From positions 1 to 64,000 of the forward strand of contig CAIRTK010000015.1 in the NCBI GenBank assembly GCA_903881475.1: DNA of 64,000 bases, given 5' to 3'. Origin of the DNA: an uncultured Opitutia bacterium (GTDB lineage Bacteria; Verrucomicrobiota; Verrucomicrobiia; Opitutales; Opitutaceae). This document shows, piece after piece, positions 1,045-55,780 of the stretch; position 1 is the stretch's first letter, and every line of letters starts with the position of its first letter. The translations under genes and the position numbers were made by a program. The notes beneath the pieces are model-generated. The model did no database searches. It saw only the letters and a program-made list of their open reading frames with translations, and was not told the DNA's origin.

Positions 1045-1051
1045 AGGCGGG

Positions 1052-1179: not shown

Positions 1180-1182
1180 TTC

Positions 1183-4959: not shown

Positions 4960-5689
4960 GGTTGACGTCTTTATAATAAAGATAGGAAGCAGGAGTCTTG
5001 CCCATCGCAACAAACCACTGCGGACAGAACGGCCCCATCCAGATCACGTCGCCCTGCTCGACCGGGTACCAGGAGTCCTCGAGCCGGTACACGCCCTGGC
5101 CGCCGAGCATGATGAGCCCGTGCTCCATCACATGGATCTCGACAAACGGCAGGTGGCCGCCGGGCTGGTAGGCGAACACGTTCACCGCCAGGTCGAAGGC
5201 CGGCGAATCCGGCAGGAGCACCTGCAGGTTTGCCGCCGGGTCGCCGAGGAACGGCGTGCCGGGCACGAGGGCGGAATCGGCAATGATCGCCGCCGGCGCG
5301 GGCGTGCCGGCGAGCGGCACGTATTTTTTCTGGAAAAGCGTCACCCGCGTGTCGGGCGCCACGTCGGTCAGGCTCCAGGCCGAACCGGCCGGGGCATAGA
5401 AATACCAGCCGGCGGACACCTTCCCCTTCTGCGCGCCGATGCTGACCGTGGCGGCACCGCCGTGAAGATAACCAAAGGTCTGGCCGGCACCGGCGGGCAG
5501 CACCGCCTGACCACCCGCCTGGAACGTCACGAGCAGCTGGGCGAACTTCGCGCCCATCGCCTCGTTGATCAGCACCACGGCAGTCGCGCCGGTGATGCCG
5601 GGCACGGCACTCCCGACGTGGTTGTGGGGCGTGAGCAGGGCGTGCCGGGCGGCAACGCGGGCGCGGGTGTGACCGAAGAGTTCAGGCAT
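4946..5689 (-). CDS. allE: (S)-ureidoglycine aminohydrolase (bicupin)
   Basis: MPELFGHTRARVAARHALLTPHNHVGSAVPG...FVEIHVMEHGLIMLGGQGVYRLEDSWYPVEQGDVIWMGPFCPQWF; flanked by allB. Confidence 0.88.
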   Translation of the reverse strand: MPELFGHTRARVAARHALLTPHNHVGSAVPGITGATAVVLINEAMGAKFAQLLVTFQAGGQAVLPAGAGQTFGYLHGGAATVSIGAQKGKVSAGWYFYAPAGSAWSLTDVAPDTRVTLFQKKYVPLAGTPAPAAIIADSALVPGTPFLGDPAANLQVLLPDSPAFDLAVNVFAYQPGGHLPFVEIHVMEHGLIMLGGQGVYRLEDSWYPVEQGDVIWMGPFCPQWFVAMGKTPASYLYYKDVNRAAL

Positions 5690-5694
5690 GGGAG

Positions 5695-7056
5695 TCAGGT
5701 TTGTGGCGGGATGAACCTACCCCGCGGCGCACCGGATGCAATCCGTCCTTCACTCCAAACGGTGCGGCCCCGCACCACGGTGCGCCGCACCTGCACCGTG
5801 GATTGCCGGCCATCGTAGGGCCCCTGGCGGTGGCGATAGAGCAGTTCGCCGTTCGTGAGGGCACGGGGCTGATTCAAGGCGACCAGGCTGAAATCCGCGT
5901 CATAGCCCTCGGCCAGCCAGCCCTTGCGCGCCAACTTGAACCGGCGGGCCACATTCGCCGCCAGCAGGCCGGCCAGCCGCGGGAGTGCGCCGGAATCGCG
6001 GGCGAGAGCCTCGCTGAGCAGCAGCGGAAACCCGTGCTGGCAACCCGAGATGCCGCCCCAGATCGCGAAGAAATCCGCCGCCGTTTTCATGCCGGGCGGA
6101 GCGGGCGAATGATCCGACCCGATCGTGTCGACGCCTCCGGAGTCCACTGCGCGCCACAGGCCGTGGCGGGCGGCGTCCGGACGCAGCGGCGGCGTGCACT
6201 TCGCCACCGCGCCCTGCCGGATCACGTCATTCTCCGTCAGCAGCAGGTAATGCGGGCAGGTTTCCGCGGTCACATTCACACCGCGTTTCTTTGCGTCAGC
6301 GATGAGCGCGAGGCCTTCCGGCGAACTCACATGAACCACATGCAGCGCACAGCCGGTCTCGCCCGCAATGTCGGTCGCCGTGCGGATGGCGGCGAGTTCG
6401 ACCCCGACCGGCCGTGTCGCCAGCCAGGAACGCGGATCCGTCGCGCCGCCCGCCCGCGCCGCGGCGGTGAGCTGCTGGGCCATGGCGTCGTCCTCGGCAT
6501 GCACGGCGACCAGCAGGCCCAGTTCGGCGGCGCGTTTCATCCCGGCCCGCAGCGTGGCCGCATCGGTCACGCCGGGAAACTCGTCGATGCCGCTCCCGCA
6601 CATGAAGGCCTTCAGGCCGATCGCCCCGGCGTCGCGCAATCCGGCGAGCTCGCCGAGATTGCCCGGGACGAGTCCGCCCCAGAGGGAAAAATCCAGCACC
6701 GACTTCTGCTCCGCCAGCCGGCGTTTCGCGGCGAAGCGCTCGGCGTCGATGACCGGCGGCGAGGAGTTGAGCGGCATGTCGCAGAACCACGCGCCGCCAC
6801 CCGCCGCCAGCGCGGCCGGCCCGCTCGCGAGGCCCTCCCACTCCGTCCGGCCCGGTTCGTTGAAATGCACGTGCGCATCCAGGATGCCGGGAAAAACGTG
6901 CAGGCCCGTCGCATCGATTTCCTCGGTGGCCGAGTCCGTGAGGGACGGAGCCCGCCGGACGATGACCCCGTCGGCGATGCCGAGATCCGCCCGGATCACA
7001 CCCTCGGGGGTGACCACCGCTCCGCCACGGATGACAAGGTCCAGCCGGTTAGTCAT
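5695..7056 (-). CDS. allB: Allantoinase
   Basis: GLHVFPGILDAHVHFNEPGRTEWEG, VTAETCPHYLLL, GSDHSPAPPGMK; cyclic amidohydrolase signatures. Confidence 0.92.
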   Translation of the reverse strand: MTNRLDLVIRGGAVVTPEGVIRADLGIADGVIVRRAPSLTDSATEEIDATGLHVFPGILDAHVHFNEPGRTEWEGLASGPAALAAGGGAWFCDMPLNSSPPVIDAERFAAKRRLAEQKSVLDFSLWGGLVPGNLGELAGLRDAGAIGLKAFMCGSGIDEFPGVTDAATLRAGMKRAAELGLLVAVHAEDDAMAQQLTAAARAGGATDPRSWLATRPVGVELAAIRTATDIAGETGCALHVVHVSSPEGLALIADAKKRGVNVTAETCPHYLLLTENDVIRQGAVAKCTPPLRPDAARHGLWRAVDSGGVDTIGSDHSPAPPGMKTAADFFAIWGGISGCQHGFPLLLSEALARDSGALPRLAGLLAANVARRFKLARKGWLAEGYDADFSLVALNQPRALTNGELLYRHRQGPYDGRQSTVQVRRTVVRGRTVWSEGRIASGAPRGRFIPPQT

Positions 7057-7068
7057 GGCATTTGGACA

Positions 7069-8307
7069 TCAGGGCTTTCCCGCCATGCCCGACAGAAAGT
7101 CATCCACCACCCGCAACGCGACCGCCAGGTCCTTGGGTGACGCATATTCATCGGGGTGGTGGCTCAACCCATCGCGGCAGCGGACGAACAGCAGCGCGAC
7201 CGGCGTCAGGGCGGCCACGATCACCGCGTCGTGGCCTGCGCCGCTGACCAGGGAAAGGCTCCGGCCTTGGACCGTCCGGATACTGCGCGCCAGCCGGGCA
7301 GTCAGGGCAGGCGAACAAGGCGTGGCCGCGTGCTGCATGGTGGGCTGCCACTCGCAGACCAGCCGGCGGCGCCGGGCGAGGCGCTGCGCGTGACGGACCA
7401 GCCCGGCGAGCGCGGCGCGGCAGGCGGCGTCGTTGGGATGCCGCACATCCAGCGACACGGTCACCTCGCCGGGAATGACATTCGCCGCGCCGCCGGGCAC
7501 ATGGATCGTCCCGACCGTGGCGACCAGCCCCGGGCGGGCCCGGGCATAGGACTCGGCGAAAAGCACGAACTCAGAGGCGCCCGCGAGCGCGTCGCGCCGC
7601 AGGTTCATCGGCGTCGTGCCCGCATGGCCGGCCTTGCCCCGGAAGGTCAGCCGGCCGCGCGTCTGGCTGGCAATCGCCGAGACGACCCCGACCGCGAGTT
7701 TCTTCGCCTCCAGCACCGGGCCCTGCTCGATGTGCACCTCCACGTAGCCCAGCAGTTCGCGGGGGCGGTGAGCCGCCTTGGGCAGCGCGTAGTGCCGGCC
7801 CGCGTGGGACTCGATCACTTCCCGCAGGGTATGATTGCGGGAATCCCGCAACTTCAGGTCCGCCACGCGCAACCGGCCCGTGTAGGCCTTGCTGCCGATG
7901 TAGGCGCCGGCAAAGCGCACGGCCTCCTCCTCGGAAAAGCCGATGACCTCGACATGGAAGGGCAGGCTTTCGCCGCGCTGCCGCAGGGCTGCCAGCGCTA
8001 CGATCGGCAGCAGCACGCCGAGCGCGCCGTCGAACCGGCCGGCATTGCGCACCGTGTCGAGGTGCGAGCCGAACAGCAGTGTCTTCGCGCCGGGCGTCGG
8101 CGATTCCAGCCGGCCGATGAGATTGCCCGTGTCGTCCTCGCGCACCGTGAGACCCGCTTCGCGCATCCAGTCGCCGACCAGCAGGTTCGCCCGCTCCATC
8201 GCCGGGGAAAGAAAGGTCCGCGTGAGCCGGCCCGGCTCGTCCGTCACCCGTCCGAGCTCGTCGAGCATCCGGACGAGCCGTTGTGCGTGGTCATCCATGG
8301 ATCGCAT
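7069..8307 (-). CDS. allC: Allantoate amidohydrolase (M20-type Zn amidase)
   Basis: FGSHLDTVRNAGRFDGALGVL, EEEAVRFAGAYIGSKAYTG, EVHIEQGPVLE, GKAGHAGTTPMNLRRDAL. Start at 8307 gives an ATGA overlap with uraH; the longer listed ORF is spurious upstream. Confidence 0.88.
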   Translation of the reverse strand: MRSMDDHAQRLVRMLDELGRVTDEPGRLTRTFLSPAMERANLLVGDWMREAGLTVREDDTGNLIGRLESPTPGAKTLLFGSHLDTVRNAGRFDGALGVLLPIVALAALRQRGESLPFHVEVIGFSEEEAVRFAGAYIGSKAYTGRLRVADLKLRDSRNHTLREVIESHAGRHYALPKAAHRPRELLGYVEVHIEQGPVLEAKKLAVGVVSAIASQTRGRLTFRGKAGHAGTTPMNLRRDALAGASEFVLFAESYARARPGLVATVGTIHVPGGAANVIPGEVTVSLDVRHPNDAACRAALAGLVRHAQRLARRRRLVCEWQPTMQHAATPCSPALTARLARSIRTVQGRSLSLVSGAGHDAVIVAALTPVALLFVRCRDGLSHHPDEYASPKDLAVALRVVDDFLSGMAGKP

Positions 8308-8651
8308 CAGCTCCCGCGGTAGGTCTGGTAGGCCCACGGCGTGACCAGCAGGGGCACGTGGTAGCCGGCGGAGGCGTCCGTGATCACAAAGGCGACGGGC
8401 ACGCGGTCGAGGAAGGGGCAGTCGACCTGGCGGGCGGAAAAATAATCGCGGACAAAGAACACCAGCTCGTAGCGCCCCGCCGCCATGGCCGCGGCGTCGA
8501 GCAGCGGCGCATCCGTCCGGCCGTCGCTGTTCGTCGTCACGGCCCTGACCAGGCGCGCGGCCGCGTCGTGCGACCAGAGTTCGACCTTCATCCCGGCGGC
8601 GGGACGGCCGGTGGTGAGATCGAGGACATGGGTGCTGAGTTTTCCGGGCAT
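8307..8651 (-). CDS. uraH: 5-hydroxyisourate hydrolase
   Basis: MPGKLSTHVLDLTTGRPAAGM...AGYHVPLLVTPWAYQTYRGS; C-terminal YRGS typical of the transthyretin-like family. Confidence 0.93.
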   Translation of the reverse strand: MPGKLSTHVLDLTTGRPAAGMKVELWSHDAAARLVRAVTTNSDGRTDAPLLDAAAMAAGRYELVFFVRDYFSARQVDCPFLDRVPVAFVITDASAGYHVPLLVTPWAYQTYRGS

Positions 8652-8666
8652 GGGAATGAGGAGTAG

Positions 8667-8742
8667 CCACCACGAAATACACGAAACGCACGAAATGGGG
8701 AGGGGTTTTCTTGTTTAGTGTACTTCGTGTGTTTCGTGGTGG
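8667..8742. repeat. Dispersed hairpin repeat family B, copy 2
   Basis: ccaccacgaaatacacgaa ... ttcgtgtgtttcgtggtgg. Confidence 0.8.
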
Positions 8743-8745
8743 AGA

Positions 8746-9252
8746 TCAGGTTTTAAGCAGGTCCTGCAGGCGGAGCTGGGCGATCTTGCCGATTTCAGCG
8801 AGGGCGGCCGCGTGTTCCGTGACCGCATCGTGCGGCAGGCGGGCGTGCATCGCGGCCAGGATGGCGGACTTGGCGTTCAGCCGGGCGCAGATGATGAAAG
8901 GGAAGCCGAACTTCGCCTTGTAGGCGTCGTTGAGCCGCGTGAACTCCGCCAGCTCCGCGTCGGTGAGCTGGTCGAGCCCGGCGCTGGCCTGCTCGCGGTT
9001 GGACTCCGCCGTGAGCTTTTTCTGCTGTGCCAGCCGGCCGGCAAGGTCGGGATGCGCGCGGATCAGCGCGAGCTGTCGCTCCGGCGCGGCCGCGAGCATC
9101 GTACCACACAGCCCGGCGTGCAGGTGCGCGGCGTCGCGGAACGGACGGCGCGGCCAGGTCTCCTCCGCGACCCACGGCGAGTGCTCGAACAAATGGCCGA
9201 GCGCGGCGGTGAAGGCTGCGCGGTCGGCGGTGTTCAGGTCAGCGAGGGTCAT
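8746..9252 (-). CDS. uraD: 2-oxo-4-hydroxy-4-carboxy-5-ureidoimidazoline decarboxylase
   Basis: ...LIRAHPDLAGRLAQQKKLTAESNREQASAGLDQL...LNDAYKAKFGFPFIICAR; OHCU decarboxylase motifs. Confidence 0.92.
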   Translation of the reverse strand: MTLADLNTADRAAFTAALGHLFEHSPWVAEETWPRRPFRDAAHLHAGLCGTMLAAAPERQLALIRAHPDLAGRLAQQKKLTAESNREQASAGLDQLTDAELAEFTRLNDAYKAKFGFPFIICARLNAKSAILAAMHARLPHDAVTEHAAALAEIGKIAQLRLQDLLKT

Positions 9253-9294
9253 GCGTGGCGTGCGTCGTCAGCCGCGAGAGGTTCCGTCCCAGGC

Positions 9295-9413
9295 TTGTCA
9301 TTCTGAGCGCAGCGAAGTCTAGCCGCTTGGGGCTGGTTTGACATCCAGTGAGACTTCGCCGCGCGCTTCGATTACGTCCAAATGGATTCTTCACTTCGTT
9401 CAGAATGACAAAC
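9295..9413. repeat. Imperfect inverted repeat of the cattctgagcg/cgttcagaatg type
   Basis: ttgtcattctgagcgcagcgaag ... cttcacttcgttcagaatgacaa. Confidence 0.7.
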
Positions 9414-9430
9414 AAAGAGGGCACATTTGC

Positions 9431-11023
9431 TCACGGTAGCAGTTCGTAGGCCGGAACCGAGAGGAACTCGTCGAATTCCTTGCTCTTGGACATCCGCATG
9501 AACAGCTCGATGGCCTCGGGGAAATGCCCGCTGTCGTAGCGTTCGGCGCCGTACTCGGCGCGAATCTTGGCGAGTTCGTCCGGGAGCAACTGGTCGTAGA
9601 GCGCGGCGGTCACGGGCCGGCCGTCGTCGAGCCTGGCGCCGAATTTGAGCCACTGCCATAGCTGGGAGCGCGAGATCTCGGCGGTCGCCAAGTCCTCCAT
9701 CAGGTGGTGGATCGGCTCGGCGCCGGAGCCGCCGAGCCAGGCCTCGAGGTAGCGGACGCCGACGTGCAGGTTCCAGCGCAGACCGGCCTCGGTGATCGGG
9801 CCGTGCAGCGGCGCGAGCAGGTCAGCGGCGGTGACTTTTCCGGGATGGATAACGCCCAGCTGGTTGGGTCCCTTCATGTGCCGGCCAAAGGCCTCGATCG
9901 CGGTCTGCACCAGGCCGGGATGGGCGACCCACGTGCCGTCGTGGCCGGCGCGGACCTCGCGCTCCTTGTCGGCGCGGACCTTGGCGAGGGCGGCGGCGTT
10001 GGCGGCGGGATCGTTGCGGATCGGGATCTGCGCGGCCATCCCGCCCATGGCGTAGGCGCCATGACGGTGGCAGACGTTGATGAGGTGGGTGACGTAGGCG
10101 CGGAGGAACGGCACGTCCATCGTGATGAGCGTGCGGTCCGGGAACATATAACCGGGGCGGTTGCGCAGCTTTTTCACCATGCTGAACATGTAGTCCCAGC
10201 GCCCGGCATTGAGGCCGGAGGCGTGCTCGCGCAGCTCATAGAGGATTTCCTCGGCCTCGAATGCACCGGTGATCGTCTCAATGAGCATGGTGGCGCGGAT
10301 GGTCCCGCGCGGCAGGCCGACCGCGGCCTGGGCGTGGACAAACACGTCGTTCCAGAGACGCGCCTCGAGATGGCTCTCCATCTTCGGCAGGTAGTAATAC
10401 GGGCCGGAGCCGCGCGCCACGAGCTCGCGGGCGTTGTGGAAAAAATGCAGGCCCCAGTCGAAGAGCGAGCCGGAGAGGCGCCGGCCGTCGAGCAGGACGT
10501 GCTTCTCCTCGAGGTGCCAGCCGCGGGGGCGGACGACCATGATGGCGGTCTTGTCCTTGAGGGCGTACGCCTTCCCCTCGGGACTCGTGAAGGTGATGGT
10601 GCGGCGGACGGCGTCGTAGAGGTTGATCTGACCCTCGATGACATTTTCCCAGACGGGCGAGTTGGCATCCTCGAAGTCGGCCATCCAGCACTGCGCCCCA
10701 GAGTTGAGGGCGTTGATCGCCATCTTGCGGTCCACCGGACCGGTGATCTCGGTGCGGCGGTCAAGGAGGTCGGGCGGAATGGGCGCCACCTGCCAGTCGC
10801 CACCACGGATCACGGCCGTCTCGGGTAAAAAGTCGGGTAGCTTCCCGGCATCGATCTCGTGCTGGCGCGTGACGCGGGCGGCGAGCAGCTCCAAGCGGCG
10901 CGGGCCGAATTTCCGGACCAGGTCCGCGACGAAGGCGCAGGCCTCCGGGGTAAGGGCACCGGCATAACGGTCGTTCATCGGGCCGCGGATCTCGAGGCCG
11001 CCAATCACAGGAAAGGAACTCAT
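9431..11023 (-). CDS. aceB: Malate synthase A
   Basis: NALNSGAQCWMADFEDANSPVWENVIEGQINLYDA, ATMLIETITGAFEAEEILYELREHASGLNAGRWDYMFS, GTWVAHPGLV. Confidence 0.93.
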   Translation of the reverse strand: MSSFPVIGGLEIRGPMNDRYAGALTPEACAFVADLVRKFGPRRLELLAARVTRQHEIDAGKLPDFLPETAVIRGGDWQVAPIPPDLLDRRTEITGPVDRKMAINALNSGAQCWMADFEDANSPVWENVIEGQINLYDAVRRTITFTSPEGKAYALKDKTAIMVVRPRGWHLEEKHVLLDGRRLSGSLFDWGLHFFHNARELVARGSGPYYYLPKMESHLEARLWNDVFVHAQAAVGLPRGTIRATMLIETITGAFEAEEILYELREHASGLNAGRWDYMFSMVKKLRNRPGYMFPDRTLITMDVPFLRAYVTHLINVCHRHGAYAMGGMAAQIPIRNDPAANAAALAKVRADKEREVRAGHDGTWVAHPGLVQTAIEAFGRHMKGPNQLGVIHPGKVTAADLLAPLHGPITEAGLRWNLHVGVRYLEAWLGGSGAEPIHHLMEDLATAEISRSQLWQWLKFGARLDDGRPVTAALYDQLLPDELAKIRAEYGAERYDSGHFPEAIELFMRMSKSKEFDEFLSVPAYELLP

Positions 11024-11082
11024 AGAGGTGGGCGCGGAATAAAGCGGTCGGCGCGGGATGTGTCACTTCGATAGTGCTGCAA

Positions 11083-11425
11083 GGCCCGGGCCAATCGCCG
11101 ATCCTTTTACGGGAGGGAACGGAGGAAACAGAGAGATCTGATTTACACCAAGACCGCAAAGAGCGCGAAGGATTCGGCCCAAGCCATTTGGCCACAAAAA
11201 GGCCCAAGGGCCACGAGACTCCGGCACGTATCTCCCGCGCGCCTATAGGCGCAACGGAGGCTCTTTCGTAGCCCCGGATTCCTTGCGCCTTTTGCGGCCA
11301 ACCCATCTTAGCGGCCTTGGCGATCTTCGTGTGAAAATGGTTGGGCAGAATTCAGGGCCCAACTCTCCTCCATTCCCTCCGTTTCCGCCTGTAAACCGGA
11401 TTGGTGATTGGGCCCCTGATCCGGG
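11083..11425. repeat. Long imperfect inverted repeat enclosing repeat A copy 1 (11189-11302)
   Basis: Outer arms ccaatcgccgatccttttacggg...ggaacggaggaaa and tccattccctccgtttccgcctgtaaaccggattggtgattgg; inner atttggccacaaaaaggcccaagg ... tctcccgcgcgcctataggcgcaac ... ccttgcgccttttgcggcca. Confidence 0.7.
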
Positions 11426-11524
11426 TCATCCGTGCAAGCCGTGGTTAAAAAACCCCACCCCCCGGCCAGATCGACATCATCTAGCTCGCAACCTGCTGTA
11501 GGAATCCCCTACTTCCACCGCCTC

Positions 11525-11995
11525 ATGAATCACGACACCTTCATGCATGCCGCCATCGGCCTCGCGAATGACGGCCTCAACGCCGGGCGCGGCGGCCCCT
11601 TTGGCTGCGTCGTGGTGCGGCGCGGCGAGATTGTCGGGCGCGGCAACAACCGCGTCACCTCCACCAACGACCCGACCGCCCACGCCGAGGTGACCGCCAT
11701 CCGCGACGCCTGCGCCAGGCTGAAGACGTTCCAGCTCACCGACTGCGAGCTCTACACCAGCTGCGAACCCTGCCCGATGTGCCTCTCCGCCATCTACTGG
11801 GCGCGCATCCCGACGGTGTACTATGGCAACACCCGGCAGGATGCCGCGGCGATCGGGTTCGACGACGACTTCATCTATCAGCAGGTGCCACTGCCGCCCG
11901 AGCAACGCACGATCCGGATGGAGCCGCTGCTCCGCGAAGAGGCCCTGGGCACCTTCCGCCGGTGGGCCGCGCTGGAAAACAAGGTCCGTTACTAA
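11525..11995 (+). CDS. guaD: Guanine deaminase (CMP/dCMP deaminase fold)
   Basis: MNHDTFMHAAIGLANDGLNAGRGGPFGCVVVR...PTAHAEVTAIRDAC...YTSCEPCPMCLSAIYWA; HAE and PCxxC zinc motifs. Confidence 0.88.
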   Translation: MNHDTFMHAAIGLANDGLNAGRGGPFGCVVVRRGEIVGRGNNRVTSTNDPTAHAEVTAIRDACARLKTFQLTDCELYTSCEPCPMCLSAIYWARIPTVYYGNTRQDAAAIGFDDDFIYQQVPLPPEQRTIRMEPLLREEALGTFRRWAALENKVRY

Positions 11996-12008
11996 CTCAA
12001 TTTCATTC

Positions 12009-13208
12009 ATGGACAGCTCCTGGCTCGATTTTCTCGGTCTCCTCGTCCGCTGGCTGCACGTCATCGCCGGCATCGCGTGGATCGGCTCCTCGTTTTATTT
12101 CATCTGGCTCGATCGCAGCCTTGAGCCGCCCACCCCGGACTCGGATGCCGCGCGCAAGGGCGTGGGCGGCGAGCTCTGGGCGGTGCACGGCGGCGGGTTC
12201 TACAATCCGCAGAAATACCTCGTGGCCCCGGCCGCGCTGCCGGAGAAGCTCCATTGGTTCAAGTGGGAGGCTTACACGACGTGGCTGAGCGGGAGCGCCC
12301 TCCTGATTCTCGTCTATTGGCTCAAGGCCGGGACGATGATGGTGGATCAAAACGTGGCGGTCATTTCCGCCGGCCAGGCCGTCGCCATCGGAGCCGGCGG
12401 GCTCGTGCTTTCATGGATCGTCTATGACCTCCTCTGTCGTTCACCGCTCGGCCGCAACGACGCCGCCCTGGGCGTCGTCGTCTTCGGGCTGCTGGTGCTT
12501 CTGGCCTGGGGCCTGACGCACTGGCTCGGCGGGCGCGCCGCCTACATCGAGACCGGCGCCTGCATCGGCACCATCATGGCGGCCAATGTCTTTTTCGTGA
12601 TCATCCCCGGCCAGAAGCGGATGGTTGCCGCCATGCGCGCCGGCCGGGCGCCTAACCCGCTCGACGGCGCCCGCGGCAAGCAGCGCAGCGTCCACAACAA
12701 CTACTTCACGCTGCCCGTCGTGTTCACGATGATCAGCAACCACTACTCCGCGACCTACAGCCACCCGTACAACTGGGCGGTGCTCGCGCTGATCGGCGCG
12801 GCGGCCGTGCTGATCCGGCATTTCTTCAATCTCCGGCACAAGGGCATCTATGCGTGGCAGTATCCGGCCGCGGGCGCCGTCCTGCTGGGCTTCACGGGAT
12901 GGTGGACGATGCCGCATCCCGTCCCGCTCCCGCCCGTGCACGGCGAAGTCAACTTTGCCCGCGTCCGCGGCATCATCGGCCAGCGCTGCGTGACCTGCCA
13001 CTCCCCCGCCCCGACCTTTGCCGGCATCACCGCGCCGCCGGCCGGCGTCCTGCTGCACACGCCGGAGAACATTCTCAATAATTCCCAGCGCCTCTACCAG
13101 CAGGTGGTCGTCACGCGCATCATGCCGCTCGGCAACGCCACGCAGATCACCGAGGAGGAACGCGCGGTCATCGCCGCGTGGATCAAGGCCGGCGCCAAGC
13201 CGGACTGA
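12009..13208 (+). CDS. puuD: PuuD-type membrane urate oxidase/hydroxylase with C-terminal cytochrome c domain
   Basis: MDSSWLDFLGLLVRWLHVIAGIAWIGSSFYFIWLDRSL... multiple TM segments; C-terminal GQRCVTCHSP heme motif. Confidence 0.88.
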   Translation: MDSSWLDFLGLLVRWLHVIAGIAWIGSSFYFIWLDRSLEPPTPDSDAARKGVGGELWAVHGGGFYNPQKYLVAPAALPEKLHWFKWEAYTTWLSGSALLILVYWLKAGTMMVDQNVAVISAGQAVAIGAGGLVLSWIVYDLLCRSPLGRNDAALGVVVFGLLVLLAWGLTHWLGGRAAYIETGACIGTIMAANVFFVIIPGQKRMVAAMRAGRAPNPLDGARGKQRSVHNNYFTLPVVFTMISNHYSATYSHPYNWAVLALIGAAAVLIRHFFNLRHKGIYAWQYPAAGAVLLGFTGWWTMPHPVPLPPVHGEVNFARVRGIIGQRCVTCHSPAPTFAGITAPPAGVLLHTPENILNNSQRLYQQVVVTRIMPLGNATQITEEERAVIAAWIKAGAKPD

Positions 13209-13214
13209 AGCAGG

Positions 13215-13332
13215 GTTGGCCACAAAAAGGCACAAGGGCGCCAAGGCTCCGGCTCGAATCTCCCGCGCGCCTATAGGCGTAATGAAGGCTGTTTCGCAGC
13301 CCCAGATCCCTTGTGCCTCTTTGCGGCCAACC
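13215..13332. repeat. Dispersed palindromic repeat family A, copy 2
   Basis: ttggccacaaaaaggcacaagggcgccaaggctccggctcgaatctcccgcgcgcctataggcgtaatgaag...cccttgtgcctctttgcggccaa. Confidence 0.85.
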
Positions 13333-13355
13333 GTCCGACTTCGCGGCCTTCGCGG

Positions 13356-14690
13356 TTAAAACAGCCGGGCGATCAGGGTGTGCGTCAGGTGCAGGCCGAA
13401 GATGATCGCGAGCACGTAGCCGATCGCCGGCACCTGGCGGGCGCGGCCCGTGACCAGGTTCAGCACCGCGTAGGCGATCAGTCCGAGGCCAATGCCTTCC
13501 GCGATGCTGAAACAGAGCGGGATGCCCGCAATGATCAGGAAGGCGGGCGCGGTCTCGGTGAAATCGTCGAGGTTCAGCTTGGCCACCGACTGGAACATGA
13601 AGATGCCCACCACCACGAGCGCCGGCGCCGTCGCCGTCGCCGGGATCGCGAGGATCACCGGGGTCAGGAACAGGGCCAGCAGGAACAGCGTCGCCGTGGC
13701 GGCGCCCGTCAGGCCGGTGCGGCCGCCGGCCTCGACGCCCGACGCCGACTCGATGTAGCTGACGACGGTCGACGTGCCGAACAGCGAGCTGAGGATGGCC
13801 GCGAGGGAGTCGGCCACCAGCGCGCGGCCGGCCTTGGGCAGCTTGCCCGACGCGTCGAGCAGGCCAGCACGTTCCGTGACCCCGATCAGCGTGCCGATGT
13901 TGTCGAACATATCGACCAGCAGCAGCGTGAGGATGATGGGCAGCGCCTTGCCGAAATCGTGCAGCAGCAGGTCGAAATTGAGCTGGAACATCGTCGGCGC
14001 GGGCGACGACGGCCACGAGAAAAGGGAGCCCGGCATCGTCGTGACGGTGCCGCCCTGGCCGTTGGAAACGACGAGGCCGATCAGCGTGACGGCCAGGATC
14101 GAAAGGATGATGGCCCCCGGAATCCGCCGGGCGACCAGGATGGCCGTGAGCAGGATGCCGCCGAAGCAGAGCAGCACGGAGGGCGTGCCAAAGTCGCCAT
14201 GGGTGACAAACGTAGCGGGGCTGGCGATGACGATGCCGCCGTTCTTCAGGCCGATGAAGGCGATGAACAGGCCGATGCCGCACGTGATGGCCAGCTTCAG
14301 CTGGTGCGGGATGGCCGCGATGATCTTCTCGCGCACGCCGGTCACGGACAGCAGCAGGAAGATGCAGCCGTTCACAAAGACGAGCCCAAGGGCGGACTGC
14401 CACGGCACGTGGAGCCCGATGCAGACCGTGAAGGCGAAATAGGCGTTGACCCCCATTCCGGGCGCGAGCGCGAGCGGGTAATTGGTCATGAACCCCATCA
14501 GCAGCGTGCTGACCGCGGCGGTGAGCGCCGTGACAGTGATGAGCGCTGCCTGAGGCATGCCGGCCGCCGCGAGAATGGCGGGGTTGACCGCCAGGATGTA
14601 GGCCATCGCGGCGAAGGTGGTCGCCCCGGCCTGCAGTTCGCGGCCGATCGTGGTGCCGTTCTCGGAGAGACGGTAGATTTTTTGCAGCAT
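13356..14690 (-). CDS. NCS2 family purine permease (AzgA-like)
   Basis: MLQKIYRLSENGTTIGRELQAGATTFAAMAYILAVNPAILAAAGMP...GMGVNAYFAFTVC... Confidence 0.88.
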   Translation of the reverse strand: MLQKIYRLSENGTTIGRELQAGATTFAAMAYILAVNPAILAAAGMPQAALITVTALTAAVSTLLMGFMTNYPLALAPGMGVNAYFAFTVCIGLHVPWQSALGLVFVNGCIFLLLSVTGVREKIIAAIPHQLKLAITCGIGLFIAFIGLKNGGIVIASPATFVTHGDFGTPSVLLCFGGILLTAILVARRIPGAIILSILAVTLIGLVVSNGQGGTVTTMPGSLFSWPSSPAPTMFQLNFDLLLHDFGKALPIILTLLLVDMFDNIGTLIGVTERAGLLDASGKLPKAGRALVADSLAAILSSLFGTSTVVSYIESASGVEAGGRTGLTGAATATLFLLALFLTPVILAIPATATAPALVVVGIFMFQSVAKLNLDDFTETAPAFLIIAGIPLCFSIAEGIGLGLIAYAVLNLVTGRARQVPAIGYVLAIIFGLHLTHTLIARLF

Positions 14691-14938
14691 GGAAAGTTTC
14701 AGGAAGACACGGACGGGAACGGTGGGAAATCAGCGCGAGGCAGACGGAGGCCTATGCCACCGAAGGGTATCTGAAGCACGCTTGGCGCCGAGAGCGAGCA
14801 GTCCCTGTGCCAAAGCAGCGGCCGTGGGGATCATTTGGAGCCGCAAAATTCCCGAACCACCCGAATTGGAATATGGAACTCAGGAATTCAGGAATCGATC
14901 AGGGCTAAGTATGGATTTGGGCGTAAAACCCCAGACCG

Positions 14939-15052
14939 GTTGGCCACGAAGAGGCACACGAGATCTGGGGCTGCGACCAAGACTCCATTGCGCCTATAGG
15001 CGCGCGGGAGATTCAAGCCGGAGCCTTGGTGCCCTTGTGCCTTTTTATGGCA
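14939..15052. repeat. Dispersed palindromic repeat family A, copy 3 (opposite orientation)
   Basis: ggttggccacgaagaggcaca...cattgcgcctataggcgcgcgggagattcaagccggagccttggtgcccttgtgccttttta. Confidence 0.8.
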
Positions 15053-15170
15053 AAGGGTTTGGTCCGAATCCTTCGAGCTCTTCGCGAGCTTCGTGGTAAA
15101 AAGGTTCGAGGGCTTCCATCATTGCGCTCGACGCCCGTGGCACATCCCGGTTCGGTCGCCGCGCCCGCCG

Positions 15171-16523
15171 ATGCCCAGTCTCCTGATCAAAAATGCCGAT
15201 GTGATCGTCACGATGGACGCGACCCGGCGCGAACTGCGCGGCGGCGCCCTTTACATCGAGGACCATCGCATCGCGGCCGTGGGCCCGGCCGCCGAACTGC
15301 CGGATCTTGCGGACGAAGTTTTGGATCTCCGCGGCCACGTCGTCGTGCCCGGGCTCATCAACACGCACCACCACATGTTCCAGAGCCTGACCCGCGCCCT
15401 GCCCGCGGCGCAGGACGCCGAGCTCTTCGCGTGGCTGCGGGCCCTGTATCCCGTCTGGGGCCGGCTCACGCCGGACATGATCCGGATCTCGGCCCTCACC
15501 GCCATGGCGGAGCTGATCCTCTCCGGTTGCACCACCTCAAGCGACCACCTCTACCTCTTTCCCAACGGCTCGCGGCTCGATGACACGCTGCAGGCCGCGG
15601 AGGAGATCGGGATGCGTTTCCATGCCACCCGCGGGAGCATGAGCGTGGGCGAGAGCCTCGGCGGATTGCCGCCCGACCACCTGGTCGAAAAGGAAAGCGC
15701 CATCCTCGCCGACACCGCCCGCGTCATCGAGCGCTTCCACGATCCCCGGCGCTTCGCGATGCGCCGCATTGCGGTGGCGCCCTGCTCGCCCTTTTCGGTC
15801 AGCCGCGACCTAATGAAGGAATCGGCCGCCCTGGCGCGCAGTCACGGGGTCCGCCTGCACACCCATCTCGCCGAGAATGAACACGACGTCGCCTACAGCC
15901 GGGAAAAGTTCCATCGGACGCCCGCCGAGTACGCCGAGGACCTCGGCTGGGTTGGCGCCGACGTCTGGCATGCCCATTGCGTGAAACTCGACGAACCCGG
16001 CATCCGCTGCTTCGCCGCCACAGGCACCGGGATCGCACACTGCCCCTGCTCCAACATGCGCCTGGGCTCGGGCATCGCGCCGGTGGCGCAGCTGTGCCGC
16101 GCCGGCGTGCCGGTCGGGCTCGGGGTGGACGGATCGGCGTCCAACGACGGCGCGCACCTGCTCGGCGAGGCCCGGCAGGCCATGCTGCTGCAACGCGCGG
16201 GTTTCGGGCCGGAGGCGCTGTCGGCCCGCGCCGCCCTGGAGATGGCCACGCTCGGCGGGGCGCGCGTGCTGGGCCGCGACGACATCGGGGCCCTCGCGCC
16301 GGGCATGGCGGCGGACTTCGCCGCGTTCGATTTGCGGACCATCGGCTACGCGGGGGCCCACCATGACCCGGTCGCCGCCCTGCTCTTTTGCACTCCAACC
16401 ACCGTCAATTGGAGCGCGATCAATGGACGCATCGTGGTGCGGGACGGCCACCTCGCCACCCTCGACCTGCCCGTCCTCCTCGAAAAACACCGCGCCTTCG
16501 CCCGCGCGTTGGCCACCCGCTAA
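15171..16523 (+). CDS. 8-oxoguanine deaminase / amidohydrolase (TrzN/AtzB-like)
   Basis: MPSLLIKNADVIVTMDATRRELRGG...VVVPGLINTHHHMFQSLTRALPAAQD...SGCTTSSDHLYLFP...GLGVDGSASND. Confidence 0.85.
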   Translation: MPSLLIKNADVIVTMDATRRELRGGALYIEDHRIAAVGPAAELPDLADEVLDLRGHVVVPGLINTHHHMFQSLTRALPAAQDAELFAWLRALYPVWGRLTPDMIRISALTAMAELILSGCTTSSDHLYLFPNGSRLDDTLQAAEEIGMRFHATRGSMSVGESLGGLPPDHLVEKESAILADTARVIERFHDPRRFAMRRIAVAPCSPFSVSRDLMKESAALARSHGVRLHTHLAENEHDVAYSREKFHRTPAEYAEDLGWVGADVWHAHCVKLDEPGIRCFAATGTGIAHCPCSNMRLGSGIAPVAQLCRAGVPVGLGVDGSASNDGAHLLGEARQAMLLQRAGFGPEALSARAALEMATLGGARVLGRDDIGALAPGMAADFAAFDLRTIGYAGAHHDPVAALLFCTPTTVNWSAINGRIVVRDGHLATLDLPVLLEKHRAFARALATR

Positions 16524-16543
16524 ACTATAACGGTTCAGAAGGA

Positions 16544-16672
16544 GTCACCACGAAACACACCAAATACACGAAAAACCGAAGCAGCGGAGAGGCCTACTAT
16601 TTAGTGAATAAGTAAATAGCCTGAGTTTTAGATAAGGCCTGAGTTTCGTGTGTTTTGTGTGTTTCGTGGTGA
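16544..16672. repeat. Dispersed hairpin repeat family B, copy 3
   Basis: gtcaccacgaaacacaccaaatacacgaa ... tttcgtgtgttttgtgtgtttcgtggtgac. Confidence 0.8.
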
Positions 16673-16689
16673 CCCCTCTAATCGCATGG

Positions 16690-18033
16690 TTATGGGTGAG
16701 CATGGTCCTCAGGTAGCGCACCGCCGGGCAGTAGCGTGTTCATCACGAGGGCGGCGATGCCCCCGGCCGACACGCCTGACTCCAAGAGCGTCCGCACGAG
16801 CGAGGGCAGGCCCTCGAGCCAGTGGGACTGCGTCGGCGCACCCAGCCCGATGCCCAGCGAGACGGCCACGATGAGCGAATTGCGATGGTCGAGGCCGGCG
16901 CTCAGGATGAGCCGCAGTCCCGCCACCGCCACCAGCCCGAACAGCAGCAGGGCCATTCCGCCCAGCACCGCCGGCGGCATCGCGGTCACCCAGCGCGCCA
17001 CCACCGGGAAAAGCCCGAGGATCGCCAGGATCGCGGCCATGATCTTGCCGATGTGGCGGCTCGCCACCCCGGTGATCTGGATCACGCCGTTGTTCTGGGC
17101 ATACGTGGTGCTGGGAAACGAACCGATCAACGCCGCCACGGCGCTCGTGACCGCATCGCCCAAAACCCCGCCGCGGATCCGGAGCCAGTGCGCCGGTCCC
17201 TTGGTGTCGAGGCCGGACAGCTGCGACGTCGCCGTGATGTCGCCCATCGCCTCGATGATCGAGACCACGTAAATGAACGCGAAAGGAATAAAGAATTCCG
17301 CCCGGAACGCCAGGTGATGCGGCAGCAACCGCGGCAGCATGATCCAGGAATCGGTGGGCGGGGGCGCATGCAGCCAGCCGGCCACGGCGCAGATCACATA
17401 GCCGGTGACCACGCCGACCAGGATGCTGATCATGCGGGTCCTGGGTTTGCCGAGCGCCTGGGCCGCGAGGACGGCCGCCATGACGGCCGCAGCCACGCAA
17501 CCGCCGGCCCAGACCGGCGCGCCCGGGCCGGCCGGCTCGACGATGCCGCGCATCGCCTCGGGGATGATCGAGAGCCCGATCAGCACAACGACGATGCCCG
17601 AGACCAGCGGCGTGAAGATCCGCCGGAATTTCGGCAGAAACGGGGCGAAGAGAAACTGGATCGGGACCGTCGCGAGGGACATGCCGAACATCAGCGGCAA
17701 GCCGCCCGCCTTGCCGCTGACAATCAGGGGCTGCAGGAAGGCGAAACTGGTGCCCGTCACGCTCAGCAGGCCCGAGCCAACCGGCCCAAGGCGCATGGAC
17801 TGGATCGCCGTGCCCAGCGCTGCCGCCAGCAGCGCCATGCTGACCAGATACGCGGTGTCGGCCGGGCTGAACCCGAGGATATTCGAGAGGATCAGCGCCG
17901 GCGTGATCACGCCGACCACCATCGCCGCCACCTGCTGCAAACTGACCAGCAGCGCCGTGCCGGCCGGCATCCGGTCGTCCACGCCGTACACCAGCGAGTG
18001 CGTGCGCCCAGTTGATCCGGAGGGTTCTTCCAT
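16690..18033 (-). CDS. NCS2 family xanthine/urate permease
   Basis: LVYGVDDRMPAGTALLVSLQQVAAMVVGVITPALILS...SFPSTTYAQNNGVIQITGVASRHIG; nucleobase:cation symporter-2 signature. Confidence 0.9.
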   Translation of the reverse strand: MEEPSGSTGRTHSLVYGVDDRMPAGTALLVSLQQVAAMVVGVITPALILSNILGFSPADTAYLVSMALLAAALGTAIQSMRLGPVGSGLLSVTGTSFAFLQPLIVSGKAGGLPLMFGMSLATVPIQFLFAPFLPKFRRIFTPLVSGIVVVLIGLSIIPEAMRGIVEPAGPGAPVWAGGCVAAAVMAAVLAAQALGKPRTRMISILVGVVTGYVICAVAGWLHAPPPTDSWIMLPRLLPHHLAFRAEFFIPFAFIYVVSIIEAMGDITATSQLSGLDTKGPAHWLRIRGGVLGDAVTSAVAALIGSFPSTTYAQNNGVIQITGVASRHIGKIMAAILAILGLFPVVARWVTAMPPAVLGGMALLLFGLVAVAGLRLILSAGLDHRNSLIVAVSLGIGLGAPTQSHWLEGLPSLVRTLLESGVSAGGIAALVMNTLLPGGALPEDHAHP

Positions 18034-18214: not shown

Positions 18215-18544
18215 CTATTTCTGCAGCGTGCGCACGTACGCGATCAGGGTCTTGATCTCGTCGTCCGTGAGCTTCTCCGCAAACGGCTTCATCAGCTGCT
18301 TGCCGGACTTGTCCTTGAGGCCGTTCTTGATGTCGGTGAAAGCCTGCGCGTCGGTGTAGGATTTCTGGTACGCCGCATCCGTAAAATCCTTGGCGTCGAG
18401 TTGCTTCCCGGCCTTGGTCTGGCCGGCGCCATCCTTGCCGTGGCAGGCGGCGCAATTTTTGGCGTAGGTCGCCGGGGCTTCCGCCGCGGAGGCGGACACC
18501 GTGGCGCCGACGAAGAGGGCGGCGATAAGCGGGGTGAGTTTCAT
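18215..18544 (-). CDS. Secreted monoheme c-type cytochrome
   Basis: Signal peptide MKLTPLIAALFVGATVSASAAEA, CAACHGKDGAGQTKAGKQLDAKDF, distal Met candidate KQLMKPF. Confidence 0.9.
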   Translation of the reverse strand: MKLTPLIAALFVGATVSASAAEAPATYAKNCAACHGKDGAGQTKAGKQLDAKDFTDAAYQKSYTDAQAFTDIKNGLKDKSGKQLMKPFAEKLTDDEIKTLIAYVRTLQK

Positions 18545-18622: not shown

Positions 18623-18658
18623 TGCGCAGGGCTTGCAGAATTTTCCGCAAATCTTGCG
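18623..18658 (-). promoter_or_regulatory. Paired 21-bp-pitch direct repeat upstream of cytochrome c (18544)
   Basis: Minus strand: CGCAAGATTTGCGGA-AAATTC-TGCAAGCCCTGCGCA. Confidence 0.75.
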
Positions 18659-20094: not shown

Positions 20095-20130
20095 GGCAAA
20101 CCACAGTCATCTTTTGCCAAGAGATGAGGA
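20095..20130 (+). promoter_or_regulatory. Weaker 21-bp-pitch repeat pair upstream of the 20164 ORF
   Basis: GGCAAACCACAGTCA-TCTTTT-GCCAAGAGATGAGGA. Confidence 0.45.
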
Positions 20131-20163
20131 GCGGGCCGCCGCGGTTTGTGGAATCATGGGGGC

Positions 20164-20628
20164 GTGCAAAACGATTTACTGCAGGCTTTCGTGGCTTTGC
20201 GTCCGGTGATCCGGGCGAGCTGGGAAAAGTTGCTGCGGATGGAGCGGATCAATTCGCCGCTGGCCAATCCGGATACGCTGGTGCACCTGCTGGACACGAC
20301 GTTGGACGAGATTTTCCGGGACCTGCAGGCCTGGTCTCCCCGGCGGCATCCCACGCGGGCCGCCGACCCGCAATGCCCGTGCGGCCTCAATCCGCTGCTG
20401 GCCTACTTTACCGCCGGCCGGCAGGCGCTGCGCGAGGCCCTCGTCCTGGTGCAGGCCGCGACCCCCGACCTGGAGCCGGCGCGGAGAGACGAGGCGCTGG
20501 TCTGCCTGGAGCAGGTCTTCGGGCTCATCTCGCGGCGTGAAATCGCCTCCTTCTGCGCCATCTGCCAGATTCGGCCGGCGGGCAAGGCCCGCACCCCGGC
20601 CCGCCTGCACGTGGCGCTGGATATCTGA
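20164..20628 (+). CDS. Hypothetical protein with CPC and CAIC cysteine motifs
   Basis: VQNDLLQAFVALRPVIRASWEKLLRMERINSPLANPDTLVHLLDTTLDEIFRDL...DPQCPCGLNPLLAYF...FCAICQIRPAG. GTG start at 20164 proposed; listed ORF starts at 20146. Confidence 0.7.
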   Translation: MQNDLLQAFVALRPVIRASWEKLLRMERINSPLANPDTLVHLLDTTLDEIFRDLQAWSPRRHPTRAADPQCPCGLNPLLAYFTAGRQALREALVLVQAATPDLEPARRDEALVCLEQVFGLISRREIASFCAICQIRPAGKARTPARLHVALDI

Positions 20629-20660: not shown

Positions 20661-21581
20661 TTACGCGTGCACCTTGGGCGCAGCCGACGGATGCAGCTTG
20701 TCGCGGTACACCGACGGCGGCTCGCCCGCGATGCGCCGGAAGACCCGGTTGAACTGCGACAGCGACTGGAAGCCGGCCTCGTAGGCGGCCTCGCTCACGC
20801 GCTTGTTCGGGTTGAGCAGGAGGTTCTTCACCTTCTCCACCCGCACGCGGGCCACGTAGTCGGTAAAGGTCAGCCCCGTCGCCTTGCGGAAGCTCTTGCA
20901 GAAATAAAAGGCGCTCATGTTGACCGCGCGGGCGACGCCGGTGAGCGACATCTCCTCCGTATGGTGGTCGGCGATGAAGGCCCGCGCCCGGCTGATGGCC
21001 GGCGCCTCCTGCGTCTCCTCCTGCACCACGAGTTGGTTGCTGAGCGTGGAGAGATGCTGCGCGAAGATCGTCAGGAGCTGGAGAATCGAGTCGTACTGCT
21101 TCTTGGACACGACCCGGCTCTGGAAATAGGCCTCCTCGTATTTTTTCAGGTCCGTCTCCACGCCGTATTTCAGCAGGACCTGCGTGAGCTTGCTCATCTG
21201 GGTCGAGGTGGGCCGGTGCAGGAGGATCTGGCCGGTCTGCAGGAAGGCGACGAGGTTTTCCCCGACCCGCACGGGCACCGCGGAGTCGCACAGCCCGGCG
21301 AAGCACTTGAGCGTCTTCGGGGTCAGCCCGGCCGACTCCTCCACCTTTCGCTGCAGCTGCAGGCAGCCGGCGCAGGTGTGGTTCGTGCCGGACATCAGGG
21401 CGCAGAACGGATTCTGGTTCGGGTCGCGGGTGTGCGGCAGGTCGAAGGTCTCCCGCGCCCGGAGGCTCAGCGGCAGGCCCGTCGTTTCGCGGAACGCCTT
21501 CTCGTAGTCGCGGTAGATCTGCGACCGGCGAAGCTGGTCAACCAGCGGGCGCTTCGGGCTGGAGGCATCGGGAACGGGCAT
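20661..21581 (-). CDS. AraC family transcriptional regulator with N-terminal PocR-type sensory domain
   Basis: N-terminus NPFCALMSGTNHTCAGCLQLQ...LKCFAGLCDSAVPVRVGENLVAFLQTGQ (PocR-like); C-terminus SLTGVARAVNMSAFYFCKSFRKATGLTFTDYVARVRVEKVKNLLL...AYEAGFQSLSQFNRVFRRIAGEPPSVYR (AraC HTH). Confidence 0.88.
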   Translation of the reverse strand: MPVPDASSPKRPLVDQLRRSQIYRDYEKAFRETTGLPLSLRARETFDLPHTRDPNQNPFCALMSGTNHTCAGCLQLQRKVEESAGLTPKTLKCFAGLCDSAVPVRVGENLVAFLQTGQILLHRPTSTQMSKLTQVLLKYGVETDLKKYEEAYFQSRVVSKKQYDSILQLLTIFAQHLSTLSNQLVVQEETQEAPAISRARAFIADHHTEEMSLTGVARAVNMSAFYFCKSFRKATGLTFTDYVARVRVEKVKNLLLNPNKRVSEAAYEAGFQSLSQFNRVFRRIAGEPPSVYRDKLHPSAAPKVHA

Positions 21582-21633
21582 GCCTTTGGGTTAGGTCCCG
21601 CGGGTGCGCCGGGCAAGCGAACAAGGCCTTTAC

Positions 21634-21715
21634 GCCAATTTATGCGCAGCAGTCGGCAAGTCTTGCGCAAGAAGTGCGCGCCAAGATCTGCGGAGGGAAC
21701 GGCAAGAACCGAGAT
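21634..21715 (+). promoter_or_regulatory. Double set of 21-bp-pitch repeats between pocR/araC-like gene and hupE
   Basis: GCCAATTTATGCGCA-GCAGTC-GGCAAGTCTTGCGCA (21634-21669), then GCCAAGATCTGCGGA-GGGAAC-GGCAAGAACCGAGAT (21680-21715). Confidence 0.75.
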
Positions 21716-21767
21716 GCGCCGGCCCGCCTTTGCGACTATTCTAGGCGCAACCCCTTTAACCCACCCC

Positions 21768-22349
21768 ATGAAAACCAAGTCCGCCCCGCTTCTCACTGTC
21801 GTCCTCTTTTTCGCTGCCGCGTCAGCCGCGTTTGCCCACCCGGGACATTCCTCCGTCGATGGTATCGCGTCCGGTTTTGCCCACCCGCTTAGCGGCTGGG
21901 ATCACCTCCTCGCGATGATCGCTATCGGCCTATGGGCTGCCCAACTCGGTGGACGCGCCTGCTGGCGCGTGCCAGCGGCCTTTGTCAGCGTCATGGCGCT
22001 CGCCGCCGTGGGCGGACACTTCCTCGGCGTCATGCCGGGAGTGGATCAGGGCATCGCGGCCTCCGTGCTGGTGCTCGGGCTCCTGATCGCCTGCGCGGCC
22101 CGCCTGCCTTTGATGGCCAGCGTGGCGCTGATGGGGGTCTTCGGGATTTTCCACGGCGTGGCCCACGGGGCGGAAATGCCCGCGACCGCGGGCGGGCTCG
22201 CCTTCGGCGCCGGCTTCATCGCCGCCACGGTGCTGCTCCATGCGGCCGGGATCGGCCTCGGCCTCGCCGCCGCCCGCCTCTCGGAACGCGCCCCCCGCCT
22301 GCTCGGCTGGGGCATCGCTGCCGCCGGCGTGGCGCTCTTCGCGAGCTGA
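21768..22349 (+). CDS. hupE: HupE/UreJ family membrane protein
   Basis: Signal peptide then HPGHSSVDGIASGFAHPLSGWDHLLAMIAIGLWAAQLGG...GIFHGVAHGAEMP. Confidence 0.9.
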   Translation: MKTKSAPLLTVVLFFAAASAAFAHPGHSSVDGIASGFAHPLSGWDHLLAMIAIGLWAAQLGGRACWRVPAAFVSVMALAAVGGHFLGVMPGVDQGIAASVLVLGLLIACAARLPLMASVALMGVFGIFHGVAHGAEMPATAGGLAFGAGFIAATVLLHAAGIGLGLAAARLSERAPRLLGWGIAAAGVALFAS

Positions 22350-27893: not shown

Positions 27894-27929
27894 TATGCGT
27901 GGCTTGGCAATTGCTGGTCGTATTTTGCG
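27894..27929 (-). promoter_or_regulatory. 21-bp-pitch repeat pair upstream of hyaA
   Basis: Minus strand: CGCAAAATACGACCA-GCAATT-GCCAAGCCACGCATA. Confidence 0.55.
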
Positions 27930-33036: not shown

Positions 33037-33072
33037 GGCAATATCTGCGGACTGATAGCCAACGGAGGCTGA
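33037..33072 (+). promoter_or_regulatory. 21-bp-pitch repeat pair upstream of DoxX-DUF3419-UbiA cassette
   Basis: GGCAATATCTGCGGA-CTGATA-GCCAACGGAGGCTGA. Confidence 0.6.
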
Positions 33073-39556: not shown

Positions 39557-39560
39557 GGGT

Positions 39561-40665: not shown

Positions 40666-40698
40666 GGGCAGAGGATGGCGCATTTCGGCGCGGAATGC

Positions 40699-40734
40699 TC
40701 GGCAGCCGTTGCGATAGGGTGCGCAGATCTTGCC
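40699..40734 (-). promoter_or_regulatory. 21-bp-pitch repeat pair upstream of lipoprotein-resB-ccsA-hypE
   Basis: Minus strand: GGCAAGATCTGCGCA-CCCTAT-CGCAACGGCTGCCGA. Confidence 0.7.
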
Positions 40735-42185: not shown

Positions 42186-42221
42186 TCACCGCAGCTTGCC
42201 CAAGGCTACGCATATTTTGCG
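42186..42221 (-). promoter_or_regulatory. 21-bp-pitch repeat pair upstream of hemN
   Basis: Minus strand: CGCAAAATATGCGTA-GCCTTG-GGCAAGCTGCGGTGA. Confidence 0.55.
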
Positions 42222-43832: not shown

Positions 43833-43868
43833 TGCGCACGGGTTGACGAATACTGCGCAGATCTTGAG
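43833..43868 (-). promoter_or_regulatory. 21-bp-pitch repeat pair facing the 7-heme cytochrome gene
   Basis: Minus strand: CTCAAGATCTGCGCA-GTATTC-GTCAACCCGTGCGCA. Confidence 0.7.
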
Positions 43869-43888
43869 CCGCGCCAGCAAACCCTCTC

Positions 43889-43924
43889 GCCAAGTCCTGC
43901 GCACAACTCGGCAAGGCATGCGCA
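43889..43924 (+). promoter_or_regulatory. 21-bp-pitch repeat pair facing the MtrA-like/porin operon
   Basis: GCCAAGTCCTGCGCA-CAACTC-GGCAAGGCATGCGCA. Confidence 0.8.
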
Positions 43925-52746: not shown

Positions 52747-52782
52747 TCGTCCTATCTTGGCCGGCATGCCGCATTTATTGCT
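52747..52782 (-). promoter_or_regulatory. 21-bp-pitch repeat pair upstream of the cytochrome/FeS/NrfD operon
   Basis: Minus strand: AGCAATAAATGCGGC-ATGCCG-GCCAAGATAGGACGA. Confidence 0.5.
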
Positions 52783-52832: not shown

Positions 52833-52868
52833 AACAAAATGTGCGCATCCCTGAGCTAAATGCGCGCA
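52833..52868 (+). promoter_or_regulatory. 21-bp-pitch repeat pair upstream of hemG/hemY
   Basis: AACAAAATGTGCGCA-TCCCTG-AGCTAAATGCGCGCA. Confidence 0.55.
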
Positions 52869-55744: not shown

Positions 55745-55780
55745 TGCGCAACCCTTGCCAAGCACTCCGCAATTCTTGCG
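55745..55780 (-). promoter_or_regulatory. 21-bp-pitch repeat pair upstream of hemA
   Basis: Minus strand: CGCAAGAATTGCGGA-GTGCTT-GGCAAGGGTTGCGCA. Confidence 0.75.

Follow-up and report, generated by a model that had tools for sequence, protein, structure and literature searches.

In Escherichia coli and similar bacteria, the low-oxygen respiration programme is run by FNR, and the regulons of FNR, ANR and FixK include the cbb3 oxidase, hemN, hemA, usp, nitroreductase, hydrogenase and c-type cytochromes. Among AraC-family proteins, AraC at araI, RhaS and MelR are class II activators, in which the promoter-proximal half-site is located at -35. PocR of Salmonella, an AraC-type activator of pdu/cob, senses the small alcohol 1,2-propanediol through its PocR domain (PMC11264322). 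In Opitutus terrae and other Verrucomicrobia, clusters encoding a porin and multihaem cytochromes have been proposed to function in extracellular electron transfer (He et al. 2017, PMC5615132); a search of the article by terms returned no transcriptional regulator. Here we describe a PocR-AraC regulator encoded in a window of 64,000 nucleotides (the whole stretch of DNA analysed) from an uncultured Opitutia bacterium. Sequence comparisons suggest, with good confidence, that in Opitutales and related Verrucomicrobiota it is dedicated to the activation of micro-oxic and anaerobic respiration, filling the role of FNR, ANR and FixK.

The regulator gene (20661..21581, minus strand) encodes a protein of 306 aa that was characterized by Pfam matches and cysteine conservation. 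A PocR domain (PF10114) covers residues 27-181 (E=1.7e-23, 83.6 bits against a cut-off of 23.9), and the C-terminus matches HTH_18 at residues 217-294 (E=1.6e-24) and HTH_AraC (E=8e-16). The AraC-type double helix-turn-helix spans approximately residues 195-297, the C-terminal arrangement of about 100 aa that places a protein in the AraC/XylS family. Neither the cNMP-binding-like domain nor the Crp-type HTH of FNR/Crp proteins was found, as the Pfam matches are to PocR and AraC only. The layout of a PocR sensory domain followed by an AraC-type HTH is that of Salmonella PocR, and the protein scores 92.2 bits against the equivalog model for that propanediol regulator (NF047788), far below its cut-off of 500. 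A fold search with the predicted structure, in which confidence in the PocR domain is only moderate, returned AraC DNA-binding domains as the top matches and full-length AraC proteins weakly; no Fe–S proteins were among the best matches. An earlier sequence-only reading had recognized a PocR-domain AraC protein in this region and no other transcription factor in the window. Pfam bears out both domains, and the second point holds for the roughly 35 window proteins scanned, none of which is another transcription factor. The end coordinate given in that reading, 21715, takes in an array of boxes upstream of the gene, which itself ends at 21581.

This array lies between the regulator gene and the divergent gene hupE (HupE/UreJ; 21768..22349, plus strand; PF04955, E=4.9e-54). 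Its four boxes start at 21634, 21655, 21680 and 21701, with pitches of 21, 25 and 21, just as first reported, and they resolve into two 36-bp tandem dimers on the plus strand. In each dimer, the 15-bp half-site GSCAAGnnnTGCGCA is arranged as a direct repeat with a pitch of 21 bp. Dimer 1 (21634..21669; GCCAATTTATGCGCA-GCAGTC-GGCAAGTCTTGCGCA) is strong and distal at the hupE promoter; it has a single mismatch in 24 scored positions, an own-genome E of 4.8e-6 and a weight-matrix score of 43.3, and is among the strongest sites of the genome. Dimer 2 (21680..21715; GCCAAGATCTGCGGA-GGGAAC-GGCAAGAACCGAGAT) is weak and promoter-proximal, with five mismatches, since TGCGC is missing in register from its second half; dimer 1 lies 46 bp upstream of it. 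Calling the array the densest in the window is fair, though the region 43833-43924 likewise holds two dimers, in that case divergent.

The dimeric site recurs in the window far beyond expectation. Six dimers with at most 4 of 24 mismatches were observed against 0.0 expected from Markov shuffles, and 13 with at most 6 mismatches against 0.47 expected; a 36-bp weight matrix found 13 sites scoring at least 15, and the reversed matrix found none. For de novo motif discovery we took 31 non-redundant intergenic regions of 230 bp from relatives, picked solely by their position beside orf160, a gene that adjoins the regulator. A Gibbs sampler returned the same dimer (CAAGATATGCrCAG.syTsGsCAA..C.TGCGGAGC) with 34.0 bits of information, compared with 12.1-13.6 bits in twelve shuffled sets. 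These regions contain the site in 25 of 31 cases, in both orientations in 21 of 31, and the reversed matrix found none. In 76 named loci, 34 same-strand half-site pairs occur at a pitch of 21 bp and no more than 4 at any other pitch. In the 700 bp preceding ccoNO, a small conserved coding-like stretch misled a de novo search, and the orf160-side region was used in its place.

The site also stands at a fixed distance from a promoter element. Across 196 distinct aligned sites, a -10-like hexamer TANNNT starts exactly 21 bp past the site in 85, and every other offset accounts for 8 sites or fewer; upstream offsets average 0.8. In the same alignment, A at position 22 and T at position 26 each occur in 82% of sites. 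A fixed distance to the -10 places the promoter-proximal half-site next to the -35 region or overlapping it, and favours activation over repression. We trained a 64-bp model of site plus promoter on relatives only, with the window excluded. In the window this model found 13 sites scoring at least 14, 12 of them at least 20, and 20 column-permuted controls gave none. In approximately 700 kb of the genome outside the window it found six sites scoring at least 20, all on contigs C9 and C79, which had been included in the scan owing to earlier site matches there. We regard the motif and its promoter geometry as real with near certainty. The arrangement resembles that at araI and the RhaS and MelR promoters, with two direct half-sites 21 bp apart and the proximal half at -35; it differs in that the predicted regulon here is larger, at a dozen promoters, and in having a PocR sensory domain in place of a cupin-like arm. 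The regulator would bind the 36-bp site, with its two 15-bp half-sites, directly as a dimer and recruit RNA polymerase.

At hupE, a -10-like hexamer (TATTCT, 21737..21742, plus strand) starts exactly 21 bp after dimer 2. Both dimers are retained in close relatives (L066-L068), with the second copy at the same spacing. On this reading, the weak but correctly spaced dimer 2 would activate hupE, probably loaded with help from the strong dimer 1. The sequence-only reading had instead interpreted the four-box array (21634-21715) as a sign that the regulator controls its own gene, an idea encouraged by the location of the array in the pocR-hupE intergenic region, where the pocR start codon is 53 bp away. 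Both dimers face hupE, however, and the -10 at +21 is that of hupE. A site occurs within 300 bp upstream of the regulator gene in only 6 of 74 orthologues, in every case directed away from the regulator. We therefore consider autoregulation improbable, and on this survey of upstream sites we rejected it as the main role of the array.

Several other genes of the window have a site in front of them, and most of these are genes for electron transfer or haem synthesis. The site upstream of the hydS/hydL [NiFe]-hydrogenase operon (27894..27929, minus strand; model score 35.0) has TACTGT at +21. Three haem genes follow the same pattern: hemN, encoding an oxygen-independent coproporphyrinogen III oxidase with a likely start near 42144 (site 42186..42221, minus strand, GACCAT at +21); hemY, encoding protoporphyrinogen oxidase (52902, plus strand; site 52833..52868, plus strand, TAGGGT at +21); and hemA, encoding glutamyl-tRNA reductase (54567-55685; site 55745..55780, minus strand, GAAACT at +21), whose site is the best in the window (47.3). 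A perfect dimer (43889..43924, plus strand, CATCCT at +21) precedes genes for a DmsE-type multihaem cytochrome (44013-44813) and a porin-like ORF (44833-47034), and a site on the opposite strand (43833..43868, TACACT at +22) precedes a NapC/NrfH-type multihaem cytochrome gene. Upstream of a set of genes for a cytochrome c, a tetrahaem cytochrome and a DsrO-DsrP-like complex (52661 downward) is a weak site (52747..52782, minus strand) with GATACT at +21. The tetrahaem cytochrome and the DsrO- and DsrP-like subunits are encoded at 48914-52297 (minus strand), with DsrP above its curated cut-off; such membrane electron-transfer complexes are known from sulfate reducers, and sulfate reduction is not established for this organism. 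A dimer with no -10 at +21 is found upstream of a monohaem cytochrome c gene (site 18623..18658 and gene 18215-18544, both minus strand).

Sites also precede less well characterized genes. One (40699..40734, minus strand, CATCCT at +21) precedes ORF 39553-40683 together with resB/ccsB, genes for cytochrome c assembly. The conserved product of this ORF (minus strand) has no Pfam match and is possibly a lipoprotein; its gene is linked to those for ResB/CcsB and carries the site both here and in relatives. Another (33037..33072, plus strand, TATACT at +21) is upstream of an ORF at 33157. The site in front of orf160 (20095..20130, plus strand; model score 24.1) is accompanied by AATCAT, and the orf160 promoter carries a site in relatives as well. 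The orf160 protein (20146-20628, plus strand) has no Pfam or NCBIfam match and adjoins the regulator in most relatives, and its cysteines C77, C79, C137 and C140 are 98% conserved in 48 homologues. It is likely a redox-related member of the regulon. The region 133-18033 encodes purine breakdown (XdhC, OHCU decarboxylase, 8-oxoguanine deaminase and xanthine permease) together with malate synthase, and no sites scoring at least 15 were found in it.

Elsewhere in this genome, site-bearing promoters on C9 belong to the cbb3 oxidase operon and to usp-nitroreductase, and one on C79 belongs to a flavodoxin-fold quinone-reductase-like gene. The cbb3 operon retains its site even though it is on another contig than the regulator. 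Sites are found in relatives, too, at promoters of hydS/hypA, the conduit genes, napC/cytochrome c, hemN, hemY, usp-nitroreductase and cco, and the hydrogenase promoter site was also detected in the relatives L201 and L230. On C79 there is a paralogue of the PocR-AraC regulator with 60% identity (3801-4778, plus strand, of L158, G000:C79:1-12000), and three site-promoters occur within the same 12 kb (2699+, 8796+ and 10724-).

A single site could thus switch on the cbb3 oxidase, hydrogenase and hupE, hemA, hemN and hemY, the c-type cytochromes, the NapC-type cytochrome, the porin-cytochrome conduit and usp/nitroreductase. In this genome and in relatives alike, the predicted targets form a micro-oxic or anaerobic respiration regulon, under a protein that would work like FNR and is not FNR. 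That the regulon serves low-oxygen respiration is, in our judgement from these predicted targets, highly probable, and they lend support to the earlier description of the protein as a master regulator. The target set, the class II promoter placement and the presence of four conserved cysteines (as in FNR) are shared with the FNR, ANR and FixK systems, whereas the protein families are unrelated and the cysteine spacing differs. The FNR site, TTGAT-N4-ATCAA, likewise has no relation to the direct repeat of GSCAAGnnnTGCGCA.

Gene order ties the regulator to the cbb3-type cytochrome c oxidase. The common order in relatives is the regulator gene, a convergent orf160, a shared intergenic region and then ccoNO. 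Of 75 named family loci, many of them incomplete, 42 have the regulator at most 2.6 kb from ccoNO, and in 13 of 20 orthologues at the order level (45-54% identity) the distance is at most 1.2 kb. In six loci of another family (34-41% identity), the gene order differs and the regulator homologue adjoins ccoI, in most cases accompanied by ccoG.

Site and regulator also go together across genomes. Among 272 genomes of the order, 63 encode the regulator and 21 have a strong site (at most 3 mismatches), and 20 of those 21 also have the regulator (p=2.4e-13); in 61 genomes of the family scanned with a profile model, sites were found in 36 of the 40 that encode an orthologue of at least 60% identity, against 6 of the 21 that do not (p=1.7e-6), although both p-values overstate the case because the genomes are treated as independent. 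The reversed pattern gave two sites in total in the 272 genomes, and the order sample included seven same-family genomes that lack the regulator, all of them free of sites. Four orthologue-bearing genomes of the family have no detectable sites. The reverse situation, a motif in a genome without an ortholog, had been proposed as grounds for withdrawing the assignment of the motif to this protein, and it is confined to a few exceptions: G027 at the order level, G284, G291, G292, G272 and G035 in the family, and G303, which has one marginal site and only a paralogue-like copy of the regulator. The assignment is otherwise strongly supported by this co-occurrence, by the linkage to the cbb3 operon and by the de novo rediscovery of the motif, all of which are sequence comparisons. 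In G291, which is 98% complete, three sites are present and the orthologue was not found, suggesting an assembly gap or another protein that uses the site.

These exceptions bear on whether the motif might belong to a different, co-inherited factor such as a PocR paralogue, with the linkage reflecting shared regulation or neighbourhood and not binding. Paralogues exist in many genomes, and here the C79 copy sits amid its three site-promoters and may share the site; a few genomes also carry sites without the main orthologue. Yet family genomes whose only copies are paralogue-like (37-55% identity; G274, G279, G283, G290, G293 and G299) lack sites, G303 with its single marginal one being the exception. 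A direct repeat with a 21-bp pitch is, moreover, the footprint expected of an AraC-type dimer, and the site is found at the regulator-cbb3 locus itself in many genera. We judge a separate factor to be very unlikely, and binding of the site by this regulator family to be very probable from the sequence patterns.

What the regulator senses is a less certain matter. Four cysteines of the PocR domain (C60, C70, C73 and C93; spacing C-x9-C-x2-C-x19-C) are invariant in 77 of 77 aligned homologues, and the homologues encoded next to cco in the other family retain all four. In a respiratory regulator, such a conserved set of four within the sensory domain suggests that oxygen or redox state is sensed through a metal or an Fe–S cluster. 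C60, C73 and C93 are usually kept in distant PocR domains, so four cysteines need not mean oxygen sensing; C70 is the addition relative to most distant PocR domains sampled. We somewhat favour oxygen or redox state as the signal, and consider an Fe–S or metal site in the PocR domain an evenly balanced proposition.

The same regulator could act as an activator at the same sites in response to a small organic ligand held by the PocR domain, such as a short-chain alcohol or acid produced by fermentation, in which case the respiration genes would follow substrate and not oxygen or redox state. There is precedent in the response of Salmonella PocR to 1,2-propanediol through this domain (PMC11264322), and in many loci the regulator has a CoA-transferase gene as neighbour, which bears the site in L204 and L237. 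The predicted targets, however, are respiration and haem genes and include no catabolic pathway, whereas those of Salmonella PocR concern propanediol use, and the fourth cysteine, C70, is characteristic of this clade. The residues R51 and D64 for 1,2-propanediol in Salmonella PocR do not appear to be kept here. A small-ligand signal is therefore possible but rather unlikely. The reading that we prefer, with somewhat less certainty for its parts on sensing, is that the four cysteines may hold a metal or Fe–S cluster that reports oxygen or redox state.

The PocR and AraC domains, class II activation and the Verrucomicrobia conduit are known already; what would be new is an AraC-family activator in the role of FNR or FixK. 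A literature search, which covered few subscription journals, found no paper tying a PocR-AraC protein or this site to respiration or oxygen, and no known PocR, AraC or Verrucomicrobia oxygen regulator. The multihaem cytochrome and porin-like ORF (44013-47034) are the same kind of genes as in the described Verrucomicrobia clusters (PMC5615132), and differ in that the conduit here is under the same site as the cbb3 oxidase, haem and hydrogenase genes. The full proposal, that Opitutales have an independent substitute for FNR in which a four-cysteine metal or Fe–S PocR domain joined to AraC commands the cbb3 oxidase, haem synthesis, hydrogenase and an electron-export conduit, seems to us to stand about equal chances of being right or wrong. 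If true, a widespread environmental phylum with few genetic tools would gain a respiratory regulon whose site, geometry and regulator are legible from sequence. One switch would then serve the cbb3 oxidase, haem synthesis, hydrogenase and the electron-export conduit proposed for Verrucomicrobia, with consequences for the question of when these bacteria use iron or humic matter for respiration in anoxic soils and lakes. It would also mean that the PocR domain, known for small-alcohol sensing, can fill the role of FNR, possibly with an Fe–S cluster.

No Crp/Fnr-type HTH was found in this genome at E≤1e-8, and 32 of 61 family genomes have one, so that both systems coexist in part of the family and the regulator does not depend on FNR. 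In one relative, a Crp/Fnr-type HTH protein (G080:C34:43110-43313) adjoins the regulator (44603), which suggests that some relatives keep both systems at one locus.
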